From: Synechococcus sp. JA-3-3Ab
GTDB taxonomy: Bacteria; Cyanobacteriota; Cyanobacteriia; Thermostichales; Thermostichaceae
Direction of reading: 5' to 3'
NCBI RefSeq assembly: GCF_000013205.1
Contig: NC_007775.1
Location: 1,980,501-2,044,500 of the forward strand
DNA: 64,000 nt
Below, piece by piece: positions 37,353 to 42,763 of the stretch. The number at the start of each line of letters is the position of its first letter. Within the stretch, counting starts at the first letter, position 1. The notes under the pieces are model-generated. The model did no database searches and had not been told where the DNA came from. It worked only from the letters and a program-made list of their open reading frames with translations. A program made the position numbers and the translations under genes.

Positions 37353-38633
37353 TTACGCTGAACACTGCTGAGCATTACTGCTCAGCGGTGAAGCGATAGC
37401 ATTCTGTCCGTTTCCGTTGTCACTACGCGATGCTGACGCGACCGCGCTACTCGGACGGAGTCCAAACAGAAAGGCGGTATCCCGCAAAGCCCTGAGCATA
37501 ACACCCAGAGCGCCTTGCCAATCTCGTGGTAGCCTATGGTTGCACTTTGGGCATCTAAACACCTTTGCGCCACCCAACTTGGTGTGGATGTGCCCGCACT
37601 TGGTACAGGTTTTGCTGGTGTACGCTTCCGATACTTCCACGACAACCACGTTTTTCTTCTTGGCTTGAAACTTCAGGAGCTGCTTGAACCGGTAGTGCGC
37701 CCAGGTGAGCATCGCCCTTGCTGTCTTGCTACCAAACTTCCTCCCTGCCTTGGCAACCATCTTGGCTGACTCGAAAGTGGGGAGGAATATCAATCGGTAG
37801 TTATCCGTCAAGAACGCTGCTACCTTACGATGGCACTCGTCCACCAAGTTCCTGATTCTCTCCCGCAGACGAAACGCCGCTTGCCGCATTCGCCTACGCT
37901 TGGGTCTCGGTGCTTTACTCAGCCTAGACTGCAGATCGTCTAGGTGGTAGCACAGCCGAACGATCCTGCCAAAGTCTCCCTTGGCGATATCTACAAAGCC
38001 CGCCCCATCAAACCCTGTAAGGAAGCTTCTTACTCCAGGATCAAGTGCGATCACCCCCTTTGCTAACGAACACTGCTCGTTCACGGGCTCAGGGAAGATG
38101 GCATACCATCTGTCTTTCACCCGCATTAGCTCAGTTCCACGTGCCCATTCTCTGGGCATCTCCTCGGATGCACGGAACGTCAAGCCTCGGGTGAGTTTCG
38201 GATACCACGTCCCATTGCGAAAGTTGCCGGCGTTGAATTGCAGCGTATGCGACCTGTCCCGCACACTGCGAAACCTCGCGTCTTTGCTTCGGCGAAACGC
38301 CAGCCACGCCTCGACGACCGCGTTCTGCTTGATGTGGCAAGGGACGTCCTTCACCCACCCGGGCAGGTCGGAGCGCAGGATGATGTCCCGCAGCTTTCTG
38401 GCCGTTTTTGGGGCACCATGCTGACGCTGATAGGCAATCGCTTGGTTGTAGCAGTACCGGCACGCCGCTTGCCACCGCTTCCAAACTTTAGCCAGCGCTG
38501 GCTCCGGATAAATCCGTATCTTTCTCGATTGCAGCCCGATATTTTCTGAGTCCGTAGAGCCGACTGCTGAAGCAGTGCAGGATGGTGAGGATATCCTCAA
38601 CCAGTTCCTGTTGGGGAGAAAGGTGATCGTCAT
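37353..38633 (-). CDS. tnpB: IS607 TnpB, RNA-guided nuclease
   Basis: The TnpB is about 426 residues from an ATG inside tnpA. Homology begins near IRIYPEPALAKVWKRWQ and continues through the RuvC motifs IALDPGVRSFLTGF (Asp), LIFLPTFESAKM (Glu) and LPRDWQGALGVML (Asp), with a zinc ribbon CTKCGHIHTK...FRCPKC between. All catalytic residues are present. The frame stays open a further 127 codons upstream, but that part is out-of-frame overlap with tnpA. The start is uncertain because few start codons occur near the tnpA stop. The 3' end probably overlaps the omega-RNA scaffold that runs to the element's right end. Confidence 0.87.
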   Translation of the reverse strand: MTITFLPNRNWLRISSPSCTASAVGSTDSENIGLQSRKIRIYPEPALAKVWKRWQAACRYCYNQAIAYQRQHGAPKTARKLRDIILRSDLPGWVKDVPCHIKQNAVVEAWLAFRRSKDARFRSVRDRSHTLQFNAGNFRNGTWYPKLTRGLTFRASEEMPREWARGTELMRVKDRWYAIFPEPVNEQCSLAKGVIALDPGVRSFLTGFDGAGFVDIAKGDFGRIVRLCYHLDDLQSRLSKAPRPKRRRMRQAAFRLRERIRNLVDECHRKVAAFLTDNYRLIFLPTFESAKMVAKAGRKFGSKTARAMLTWAHYRFKQLLKFQAKKKNVVVVEVSEAYTSKTCTKCGHIHTKLGGAKVFRCPKCNHRLPRDWQGALGVMLRALRDTAFLFGLRPSSAVASASRSDNGNGQNAIASPLSSNAQQCSA

Positions 38634-39105
38634 CGAGAACCAAGATTTCGCATCCGTATTGACGGCAGTACCACTCAACGAACTCAAATCCAAACCGGCA
38701 GAGTCGATCCCGGTGAGCGACCACAATTGTTCCGACATCTCCCGCACGGACTCGTTCCAATAAGGCAAGGAACTTTGGTCTTTTGAAGTTGAGACCGCCG
38801 CCAACCTCTCCGACCACTTCGGCTCCAGGATAGAGGTCAACCAGTCTTGCAATCTGTCTCTCCAAGTCTGGTTTCTGCCCTCGACTGCTGACTCGGGCGT
38901 ACAAAACGACTCGTTTGTCCTTCTTGGGCGCTCTGTTCGCGTCAGCGGGCCGGAGGCCAATGTAGCTGTCGAGGTCATACCTTCTCGCCCTACCGGATGG
39001 TGTACGTGTTGCATTGATCCAGCCCTTCTGTTCCCATCGCCTCAAGGTGTGGAGACACACCCCAAAATAATCCGCCGCTTCTCTCGGTTTTACATACCTA
39101 GCCAT
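38488..39105 (-). CDS. tnpA: IS607 TnpA, serine-recombinase transposase
   Basis: The 205 residues combine a MerR-like N-terminal HTH (YVKPREAADYFGVCLHTLRRW, about 4-45) with a compact serine-recombinase domain (VVLYARVSSRGQKPDLERQI with nucleophile Ser73, then VVAHRDRLCRFGFEFVEWYC). This small domain order is diagnostic of IS607 transposases, which form a synaptic tetramer and insert at GG dinucleotides. It overlaps tnpB at its 3' end. Confidence 0.93.
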   Translation of the reverse strand: MARYVKPREAADYFGVCLHTLRRWEQKGWINATRTPSGRARRYDLDSYIGLRPADANRAPKKDKRVVLYARVSSRGQKPDLERQIARLVDLYPGAEVVGEVGGGLNFKRPKFLALLERVRAGDVGTIVVAHRDRLCRFGFEFVEWYCRQYGCEILVLDDDHLSPQQELVEDILTILHCFSSRLYGLRKYRAAIEKDTDLSGASAG

Positions 39106-39290: not shown

Positions 39291-40553
39291 CTACTGCAGC
39301 ATGACGAATAGAAAGTCTTCCAACGCCGTCAGGAAGGTCAGCACCTCGTCAGTTGCCTGTTCTTCCGTCAGGGATCCCAACTCGACGACCCGCTGAATCA
39401 GCTTTGCCACCGGAGTTGGCCCCTGCAGCAGCGGGGCCAGCCATTTCACCTTCTCGGCAGGGATGCGGATCCGCCCGTGGGTGGCCCCTGTCCACTGCAT
39501 TTCGTAGGTGCAGTTCTCTTGCAGGGCCTTGTTGTACTCCTGGTGGAAGCGAGCGTTGTCCATCAGCAGGGGGTTGAATTGCACGGATCCCGCCAACCAA
39601 TCTGCATCCGTCCAAGGTAGCACCAGGGAAGAGCCGGCGTGCTCGGCCCAAAAGTCGATGAGGCGATGGGCAGGCCGGATCAGCTCGTAGAGGTGCAGCC
39701 GCTCCATGACGCTGAGGGTTTCCAGCCGTTGCCGCACAAACTCCGGCACTTGCTTAAAGAGAGACTCCAGCGACCAGTCGGGCATATCCACCAGGCTTAA
39801 AAAGCCCAACCCCGCCTGCTGCAACATGCCAAACACCTCGGGGATCGTGAATCCCTTGTCGTTGGAGAGCAGATAGTTGTTCATGATGGCGGCATCTTCG
39901 GTATAGCTGGCCGGGTTCCACAGCACCGCCTTGGCCACCTCTTCCTGCAGGGATCCCATGAACTCCCGCACATGTTGCGCCCCCACCGCCGGCGGGACGT
40001 CGAATTGCCCCACCTTTTGCAAAGCTGCCTGCAGGCGGAGAAACACCTGGCGTTGGCGGCGGCTGTGGAGATTGGCGCGAATGATGCCCTCGGGCTTGAG
40101 GACTTTTTTCATCGCCCGCAAGCCCTCAGTGGGATCCGCCAACAAATACAAAACATCGTTCAGGCTGATGAAATCGAACTGGATCCCCAGGCGATCCAGC
40201 TCCAGCACGTTGAGGACGTAGCACTGGACATCGGTGAAGCCGTGGTGCCGCAGGCGTTCCTCGGTGAGCTTGACCGAAGCCGGCGACAGATCACAGGCCA
40301 CGATCTGGGCGCCCGGATTGGCCTCCGCCATCATCAGCGTCTCCCAGCCGGAGCCACAGCCGGCGTTGAGCATCACCTTGCCCTCGGACGGGACGAGGGC
40401 GTGGGTGCGTAGGTACTGGGCGGTGGTATAGCTCATCTTGAACATCTCCCCCAGGGCATTGCGGGCCGACTGCGAGAGGGGCACGTTGGGGTAGGGCAGA
40501 GCCTCGTAGAGGCTGAGGGCCCGGTCTGCAGCCGAGAGGGCGGATCTGGTCAT
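39291..40553 (-). CDS. Class I SAM-dependent methyltransferase with extended C-terminal domain
   Basis: Residues about 25-200 form a Rossmann methyltransferase: motif I VMLNAGCGSGWETLMMA, motif II acidic end in IVACDLSPASVKL, and DFISLNDVLYLLADP. The first segment, LYEALPYPNVPLSQ, is typical of cyanobacterial methyltransferases with a tetratricopeptide or unknown C-terminal extension. The 200-residue C-terminus (YNKALQENCTYEMQW, GRIRIPAEKVKWLAPLL, LIQRVVELG) is not recognised but resembles a winged-helix cap. The substrate is unknown. It is divergent from the TPR-like membrane protein gene. Confidence 0.8.
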   Translation of the reverse strand: MTRSALSAADRALSLYEALPYPNVPLSQSARNALGEMFKMSYTTAQYLRTHALVPSEGKVMLNAGCGSGWETLMMAEANPGAQIVACDLSPASVKLTEERLRHHGFTDVQCYVLNVLELDRLGIQFDFISLNDVLYLLADPTEGLRAMKKVLKPEGIIRANLHSRRQRQVFLRLQAALQKVGQFDVPPAVGAQHVREFMGSLQEEVAKAVLWNPASYTEDAAIMNNYLLSNDKGFTIPEVFGMLQQAGLGFLSLVDMPDWSLESLFKQVPEFVRQRLETLSVMERLHLYELIRPAHRLIDFWAEHAGSSLVLPWTDADWLAGSVQFNPLLMDNARFHQEYNKALQENCTYEMQWTGATHGRIRIPAEKVKWLAPLLQGPTPVAKLIQRVVELGSLTEEQATDEVLTFLTALEDFLFVMLQ

Positions 40554-40656: not shown

Positions 40657-41475
40657 ATGACTGCTGCTGCTTTGCCCCGTCGCCGCTCCCGTTTCTCCCT
40701 GGCAGGCACCCTGGCCGCCGTGGGCGGGGCGCTGCTGTGCGGGATCCTGGTGGTGCGGCTGCAGGTGCCGATGCTGGAGCGGATCAACCTAGAGGCCCTG
40801 GAAAATGCCGAGGCCCGCAAAAACCGCAACATCGCCCTGGCCACCACCCTGGGCTGGCTGGGCTACCGCAACCTGGGCGCCTCCTGGCTGTGGCTGGAGC
40901 TGATCCAGTACTACGGCGACGCCCCTGCTCGTGCCCAAACCGGCTACGGCCTCGCCTACGAGTACTTCGACCACATGCTGCGACTGGATCCCAACTTTTT
41001 CTTGGGCTACCGGCTGTCTAGCTTGGTGTTGGCCTATCGGGCCGGCCAGCCGGAAAAAGCTGTCGAGATTTTGGATCGCGGCCTGCAGCAGTTTAACCCC
41101 CAAAACAATCCCGACGCCTGGCGGCTCTACGTGGATCGCGCCTTGATCAACTTCATGTTTTTGGGGGATGCGGAAGCGGGCCGCCGCGACTACTACCAAG
41201 CTGCCGCCTGGCGGGAACAGGTGGGCCTGCCCGGCGACGACTTTCGCCAACTGGGGGACAACATCGCCCGCAGCCCCCTCAGCCGCCGTTCCCGCTTTGA
41301 TGTCTGGCTGAGCGTGTTCAATGCCACCAGCGACCGGGATACCCGCCAGTTTGTTCTGGAACAACTGACCCAATTGGGGACGGTGCTGCGGACGCTGCCC
41401 ACCGGCGAGATCGAGATTCTCCCACCTCCTCTGCCCGATTTTCCCGAGGAAGAGCCCTACCGCTTGCGCCTGTAA
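40657..41475 (+). CDS. Conserved cyanobacterial membrane-anchored TPR-like protein
   Basis: The 272-residue protein has an N-terminal membrane anchor (FSLAGTLAAVGGALLCGILV, about 14-35) and a helical body with one or two TPR-like pairs (YGLAYEYFDHMLRLDPNFFLGYRL, read as AYEYFDHMLRLDPNFFLGY; AGQPEKAVEILDRGLQQFNP). No catalytic motif is seen and I know no assigned function. The nuclease-PspA fusion and a second TPR protein follow on the same strand. Confidence 0.7.
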   Translation: MTAAALPRRRSRFSLAGTLAAVGGALLCGILVVRLQVPMLERINLEALENAEARKNRNIALATTLGWLGYRNLGASWLWLELIQYYGDAPARAQTGYGLAYEYFDHMLRLDPNFFLGYRLSSLVLAYRAGQPEKAVEILDRGLQQFNPQNNPDAWRLYVDRALINFMFLGDAEAGRRDYYQAAAWREQVGLPGDDFRQLGDNIARSPLSRRSRFDVWLSVFNATSDRDTRQFVLEQLTQLGTVLRTLPTGEIEILPPPLPDFPEEEPYRLRL

Positions 41476-41785
41476 TTCCAATCCCCTAACTGGGCAAAGA
41501 TTGCGCTCTAGGGTTGTGACGTTGCCCCAAGAGGTGAGCTAAACTCTAACCCAAATTGTCATCCTGGAAGCCGTCTTCTTCACAGGACCGATCCCTGCGT
41601 CAGAGAATCTGCTCTCTCTGGCGCAAGCGAAGTGTTGCTCCCGCTGCCTCTCCTCGAAGAAGGGGCGGCTATCGTTCTTGCTTCCGGTTCGTGAAGACGC
41701 TCCAGGCTTTCGGTAAGTTCCCGCAGCTTCCCCATTTCTTATTATTTCTTAACTTTTGTTGTTCTGCACAATAGGAGTGATCCCC
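41476..41785 (+). other. 310-base non-coding leader region
   Basis: No gene is seen between the TPR-like gene and the nuclease fusion. The region holds several short stems (for example CAGAGA/TCTCTG) and ends in an AT-rich run (TTATTATTTCTTAACTTTTG) before a GGAG ribosome site. It could be a structured 5' leader or a small RNA, but I cannot match it to a known family. Confidence 0.35.
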
Positions 41786-42763
41786 ATGGCCTCAAGAACT
41801 TCTCTCCTGATGATGGCGGCTGTCCTTTCGGGCAGTTGGTTTGTCCTCCCTGCAGCGGCCCAATCTTCTGGGACAGCGCGAGTACGGTCGGTGGTGGATG
41901 GGGACACCTTTTGGGCAGACTTGAACGGCAGGCCAACCCGTTTTCGTCTTGCCTATGTGGATGCCCCAGAGCTGACGCAAGGGCGCTGGGGGCGGCTCTC
42001 GCAGGAAGCTTTGCAAAGCCTGCTGCCGCCGGGATCCCTGGTGCAGGTGGATACTCTCTACGTCACGCCAGAAGGGCTGCACATTGCCCAGGTGTACAAC
42101 GCCGAGGGTTTGGTGAATTTGGAGATGTTGCGCCAGGGGCAGGCGGTGGTTTATGAGCGCTTTTTGTACGGGGCCAACCGGGAGCGCTACTTGGAAGCTC
42201 AAGAATTGGCCCAGGCGGCGCGACGAGGTTTTTGGCAGCAACGCAATCCGGTGATGCCCTGGGAGTTTCGGGAGACAGCCGCGCAAACCTCAGCCTTTGC
42301 GGGATCCAACGTTTTGGACGGCTCCTTCCTGCGGGAAAACCCGGCAGCGGCTGCGGGCGTGGGCATTGCCACCGCGGTGGTGATGGTGGGCTTGAGCAAG
42401 CTGCTGTGGAGAAAGCCCAGCCGGCAGAGGGTGAGCATCCGCCAGATGGAGCGGGATCTCAAACAACTGCAGCGCAGCCTGGCCACAACGCTGGCCAGCC
42501 GCAAGCAACTGGAACGGCAGTACGATCAACTGCTGCAAAAGGCCGAGGATTGGTTTGTCAGAGCCCAAAAGGCCAGCCAACATGACCAGGACGAGCTGGC
42601 GCGCCAGGCTTTGGTGCAGCGGAACCAACACATGAGTGCTGCAGAGGCGGTTCGCAAATCTTTGGATGAAGTTGAAGCGCAGGCGGCAACCCTCCGCGAA
42701 GGCATTTCTCGCCTGGAAAGCCAGATCGCGCTGGCCAAGCTGGAACGGGAGATGAACAACTAA
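41786..42763 (+). CDS. Secreted SNase-like domain fused through a membrane helix to a PspA/Vipp1-like coiled coil
   Basis: The 325-residue protein has four parts. These are a signal-like N-terminus (1-27, ending AAAQ), a staphylococcal-nuclease domain (31-155), one membrane helix (about 187-207, AAAAGVGIATAVVMVGLSKL) and a coiled coil (215-325). In the SNase domain the calcium/catalytic residues Asp40 in VVDGDT, Arg54, Asp59 and Glu62 in RLAYVDAPE are kept. The position of catalytic Arg87 of S. aureus nuclease is Leu98 (EGLHIAQVY), so activity may be reduced. The coiled coil matches the central and C-terminal helices of PspA/IM30 (LARQALVQRNQH, ISRLESQIALAKLEREM). ATG at 41786 has AGGAG eight bases upstream. 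Confidence 0.8.
   Translation: MASRTSLLMMAAVLSGSWFVLPAAAQSSGTARVRSVVDGDTFWADLNGRPTRFRLAYVDAPELTQGRWGRLSQEALQSLLPPGSLVQVDTLYVTPEGLHIAQVYNAEGLVNLEMLRQGQAVVYERFLYGANRERYLEAQELAQAARRGFWQQRNPVMPWEFRETAAQTSAFAGSNVLDGSFLRENPAAAAGVGIATAVVMVGLSKLLWRKPSRQRVSIRQMERDLKQLQRSLATTLASRKQLERQYDQLLQKAEDWFVRAQKASQHDQDELARQALVQRNQHMSAAEAVRKSLDEVEAQAATLREGISRLESQIALAKLEREMNN

Follow-up and report, generated by a model that had tools for sequence, protein, structure and literature searches.

What would bring the fold of an exported nuclease and a piece of the bacterial ESCRT-III machinery together in one polypeptide, on opposite sides of one membrane? This question is raised by a gene of Synechococcus sp. JA-3-3Ab, which lies in a 64,000-nucleotide stretch of contig NC_007775.1 (the window, from whose first letter positions are counted here). 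The preliminary description had read the gene product as a staphylococcal nuclease (SNase)-like domain, one membrane helix and PspA/IM30-type sequence in a single protein, and Pfam, sequence matches in the PDB, an AF2 model and hydropathy all bear this out, with the sides of the membrane predicted. The gene and its parts are laid out as follows:

41773..41777, + strand: ribosome-binding site AGGAG, read from the sequence, 8 bases 5' of the ATG
41786..42763, + strand: fusion gene, start ATG 41786, 325 aa plus stop; orthologues 83-91% identical
41786..41863, + strand: predicted signal peptide (..LPAAAQ), residues 1-26; hydropathy peaks over residues 7-25; orthologues share the layout
41864..42241, + strand: SNase-fold domain, residues 27-152, predicted extracytoplasmic (Pfam, Foldseek, VIA)
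42077..42079, + strand: Leu98 codon, at the site of the catalytic Arg87 of S. aureus nuclease (alignments)
42242..42349, + strand: linker, residues 153-188, with a predicted helix at 158-175 (AF2 model)
42350..42406, + strand: transmembrane helix, residues 189-207 (Kyte-Doolittle mean 1.85), then positive WRKPSRQR
42437..42757, + strand: Vipp1/PspA-type α1-α3 hairpin, helices 218-265 and 269-324, predicted cytoplasmic (Pfam, PDB, AF2, shuffles)
42551..42625, + strand: hairpin tip, residues 256-280, best conserved against Vipp1/PspA (shared columns); Leu271 corresponds to Vipp1 Leu86

The same layout is found in 10 full-length Thermostichaceae proteins, which form two sub-families, clade A (with the source protein) and clade B. 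Hydropathy of the fusion protein peaks only twice, at the signal peptide and at residues 189-207, and basic residues stand C-terminal of the transmembrane helix in all members. By hydropathy only, we predict a single pass with the N-terminus out and the C-terminus in; export is likewise a prediction, made from the hydropathy and sequence pattern of the signal peptide only. The N-terminal domain has an SNase OB-fold by Pfam (PF00565, residues 52-152, E 9.1e-11, above the gathering cut-off), by a sequence match to thermonuclease in the PDB (~3e-6) and by structure comparison. In the AF2 model, built with a 42-row alignment, the barrel reaches a pLDDT of about 95-98, and it resembles staphylococcal nuclease with a Foldseek TMt of 0.84 and, over residues 26-151, a VIA Z of 17.1 (rmsd 2.3 over 123 residues). 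Clade B shares the fold by model: a member with no Pfam SNase match (L041) was modelled as an SNase fold, possibly helped by the stand-alone SNases in its alignment. The linker is poorly conserved and has a low pLDDT.

For the C-terminal half, PF04012 (PspA_IM30) matches residues 218-322 with an E of 1.1e-14, above the gathering cut-off and covering profile positions 32-136 of 220, and Vipp1 in the PDB aligns by sequence without a gap, its residues 31-138 to fusion residues 216-323 (8.9e-12); NCBIfam returns sub-threshold equivalog-model matches only, PspA being the best at 6e-14. The AF2 model has the two long helices at a pLDDT of about 87-96, and another helix over the hydrophobic stretch. 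Matches in the structure search are SNase entries, and the hairpin assignment rests on sequence and model. Could any coiled coil score like this? Against a profile of 13 Vipp1/PspA hairpins, the fusion hairpin reaches 78.8 bits and those of clade B 48-58, compared with at best 13.6 for 2000 heptad-preserving shuffles, 3.9 for the reversed sequence and at best 15.4 for heptad-preserving shuffles of a clade B hairpin. Together with the presence of PF04012 at only three places in the whole source genome (a full-length Vipp1-like gene, the fusion gene and a second pspA), this rules out a coiled-coil artefact. The homology to PspA/Vipp1 that had been suggested is thus real, but it covers the α1-α3 hairpin and not a whole PspA. 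Helix α0 (residues 1-22 of Vipp1/PspA) is missing, with the transmembrane helix in its place, ending ~10 residues before the hairpin; α4-α5 are missing too, the protein stopping at residue 325, equivalent to Vipp1 ~140. Unlike Vipp1/IM30 and PspA, with which it shares a homologous hairpin, the fusion has no α0, α4, α5 or Vipp1 α6, and is predicted to span the membrane and to have its N-terminal domain exported.

In the Thermostichaceae, a small cyanobacterial family of hot springs, 8/8 genomes have the fusion, three of them (G002, G005 and G006) in two copies. Among the 388 genomes of the class that were searched for this domain order there is no other full-length match: the fusion is absent from the 380 cyanobacteria outside the family, including the sole genome of the order's other family, which rules out a common annotated family within cyanobacteria. 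In a contig search of genomes, the full-length relatives all came from Thermostichaceae-like cyanobacteria, with weak SNase-only matches elsewhere; no plasmid record among the 5000 matches listed covers 80% of the query. The same single open reading frame in several separate genomes rules out an assembly or annotation chimera, and the one split copy (G003) is broken at contig ends. In the trees of both the hairpin (support 99/99 and 100/99) and the SNase domain (100/97), a branch separates the fused proteins from the rest, and fusion hairpins cluster with Vipp1 from the same family of organisms (94/91). They are divergent, on a branch of about 1 change per site, and long branches leave their exact position unsure. 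As the simplest reading, the trees of both halves favour one fusion event that drew on a Vipp1 copy: an exported SNase domain, a membrane helix and the α1-α3 hairpin of that copy would have been joined once, in the ancestor of the Thermostichaceae. A genome of the same family (G007, contig C161) carries two tandem full-length Vipp1-like genes (L083).

Gene context gives little help with function. In the source genome, two neighbours lie upstream:

40657..41475, + strand: TPR-like protein with an N-terminal hydrophobic helix, a neighbour in 4/4 genus genomes with an intact neighbourhood
39291-40553, - strand: divergent methyltransferase gene, its order beside the fusion gene conserved in the same four genus genomes

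No vipp1 or pspA, and hence no conserved operon with either, was found in the neighbourhoods of the fusion genes, and clade B copies have different neighbours. A gene that we identify by eye as an MscS-type mechanosensitive channel lies ~50-440 bp downstream of the fusion gene in three of the five genus genomes (L038:4833-5936, L039:5133-6230 and L040:5256-6359), and a homologue was not found in the source genome, G003 or G004. Further upstream in the window, 37353-39105 on the minus strand holds a serine-recombinase gene and a TnpB-type gene that overlap and look IS607-like by eye; a TnpB almost identical to this one (L044:25-756) adjoins the second SNase gene of the source genome. That gene (L044:1492-2250, minus strand, genome ~1951119) looks degenerate itself (VNGDT, RLAGIQG and Leu at the Arg87 place), so the source genome may hold no complete SNase.

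Does the fused domain still cut? With the numbering of S. aureus nuclease, we compared clade A, clade B and 18 stand-alone cyanobacterial SNases, which have D19, D21, D40, E43 and R87 in 18/18 cases and R35 in 17/18. Clade A retains D19, D21, R35, D40 and E43, with R87 replaced by Leu in all five proteins compared, and the Leu98 singled out in the preliminary description is indeed the Arg87 equivalent. The losses in clade B are the mirror image: R87 is retained, R35 has become D or N, D40 has become R, P or V, and E43 is lost in four of five (L034 being the exception), so that the complete site (D21, R35, D40, E43, R87) exists in neither sub-family. The phosphate is polarised by R35 and R87, the latter also being a proposed proton donor (PMC8436206). 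Clade A is under purifying selection, its SNase part being the most constrained region (pairwise dN/dS 0.02-0.07, against 0.07-0.16 for the hairpin). Since the two clades break different halves of the site, and this part of clade A is nonetheless the most constrained, nuclease activity is unlikely to be their common function; an incomplete site with a dN/dS below that of the hairpin suggests that the clade A domain is retained for a purpose other than standard SNase catalysis. The earlier suggestion of binding rather than cutting is strengthened, on these sequence grounds, by the loss of the other half of the site in the sister sub-family. The fusion differs from the exported cyanobacterial thermonucleases, with which it shares the SNase fold, a signal peptide (predicted in the fusion) and up to ~44% domain identity, both in its incomplete site and in its continuation into a transmembrane helix and a Vipp1 hairpin. 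SNase-fold domains retained as binding modules, as proposed here, are found in SND1/Tudor-SN, which is unlike the fusion in being eukaryotic, cytoplasmic or nuclear, and built of repeated SN domains with a Tudor domain.

On the other side of the membrane, conservation is centred on the tip. When the 10 full-length fused proteins are compared with 13 Vipp1/PspA hairpins, W256, A263, A272 and A275 are invariant, and 8 of the 13 shared columns fall in residues 256-280 (hypergeometric p 0.002, an optimistic value because the tip limits were chosen after viewing the column table); clade B hairpins retain little beyond the tip and the middle of α1. In Vipp1, the tip takes the α5 helix of neighbours (interfaces 1 and 3) during polymer formation, Leu86 contacting α5 and being cross-linkable to α5 Leu193, and Vipp1 lacking α5, or α5/6, does not polymerise (PMC8281802). 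On its own, the α1-3 hairpin binds to anionic liposomes in vitro and, in living Synechocystis cells, to the cytoplasmic membrane (PMC12636044). By analogy with these tip contacts and this membrane binding, the fusion may be a membrane-anchored acceptor that joins a Vipp1/PspA polymer without extending it; ring or rod self-assembly is not expected, as Vipp1 without α5/6 does not polymerise. Nor, with α0 and the polymerising α4-α5 absent, should it remodel membranes alone, and of the membrane-repair helix imagined inside the cell, the PspA/Vipp1-type helices stand and autonomous repair is not to be expected.

We therefore tentatively put forward, at somewhat less than even confidence, that the fusion is a membrane-anchored, non-polymerising partner of Vipp1/PspA. 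The SNase-fold domain would bind some ligand or protein of the periplasm or the thylakoid lumen and so position the fusion, the transmembrane helix would take over the anchoring job of α0, and the hairpin, on the cytoplasmic face of the membrane, would offer its tip to α5 of Vipp1 or PspA. Having no α5 of its own, the fusion could not extend the polymer, and its part would instead be to seed or cap Vipp1/PspA assemblies, or to position them, where the outside domain dictates. Against docking, tip conservation could reflect the folding of the turn alone. Perhaps the hairpin is instead a clamp that lies on anionic lipid beside its own transmembrane helix, sensing lipid packing or spacing the protein with no contact to Vipp1/PspA: the α1-3 hairpin does bind membranes without α0 and α4-6 (PMC12636044), and clade A hairpins are net positive, at +4 to +5 near the helix. 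However, it is the tip and not the basic stretch that is best conserved, and the charge of clade B hairpins is close to neutral, reaching -5 at the lowest, which makes a clamp unlikely, if still plausible.

That the hairpin is now a plain dimerising coiled coil, its Vipp1 ancestry of no functional relevance, would suit its fast evolution outside the tip, especially in clade B; the four residues invariant from the fused proteins to Vipp1/PspA, and scores of 48-79 bits for real hairpins against at most 15 for shuffles, render this quite unlikely. Very unlikely, in our judgement, is a tethered nuclease, perhaps of altered chemistry, that acts outside the membrane to degrade DNA or RNA for nutrition or DNA uptake and uses the hairpin as an oligomerising stalk. 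Its relatives are exported nucleases, and clade A retains the Ca2+ ligands, Arg35 and Glu43; yet every clade A protein has Leu in place of the phosphate-polarising Arg87, clade B is without the metal site, and the SNase-fold domain is acidic to a slight or clear degree (-1 to -6). Finally, the topology, the strong constraint on the outer domain and the adjoining MscS channel gene in three genomes could fit a trans-membrane stress sensor in which the ligand state outside alters Vipp1/PspA behaviour inside, but with a single transmembrane helix, no known ligand and a linker both poorly conserved and low in pLDDT, we regard this as highly improbable.

The architecture appears to be undescribed. 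The main text of the largest PspA survey that we found reports that >98% of PspA homologues vary little in architecture, and describes PspA fusions with NlpC/P60, PspAA and tandem PspA (PMC11237479). These resemble the present protein in joining PspA_IM30 to another domain, but that main text mentions neither SNase nor a type I membrane topology. Our literature searches for a PspA-SNase fusion returned nothing relevant, and one Vipp1/PspA study retained only matches of >200 aa with a bit score >250, a filter that probably excluded the divergent fusion. Another group of PspA/IM30 proteins (L035:4400-5551, + strand, and matches in eight more genomes), mostly of about 340-390 aa, carries a Gly/Ala-rich hydrophobic insert of ~100 aa between α0 and the hairpin; even between distant cyanobacteria their identity is 77-84%, the insert has further matches within ~600-aa proteins, and the group looks like a second kind of membrane-inserted PspA.

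What directs Vipp1/PspA polymers to particular places on a membrane is a question on which the fusion bears. The Thermostichaceae lineage is the proposed earliest known thylakoid-bearing branch of cyanobacteria, and it is possible, although we hold it doubtful, that its fusion is a lineage-specific transmembrane ESCRT-III accessory in which a pseudo-nuclease on the outer side of the membrane steers Vipp1 nucleation or capping on the inner side. If this is true, bacterial ESCRT-III would have a membrane-anchored, site-determining partner, and a naturally occurring protein with the polymer-accepting half of Vipp1 anchored to the membrane, and the polymer-extending half missing, would make the question of polymer placement directly testable.
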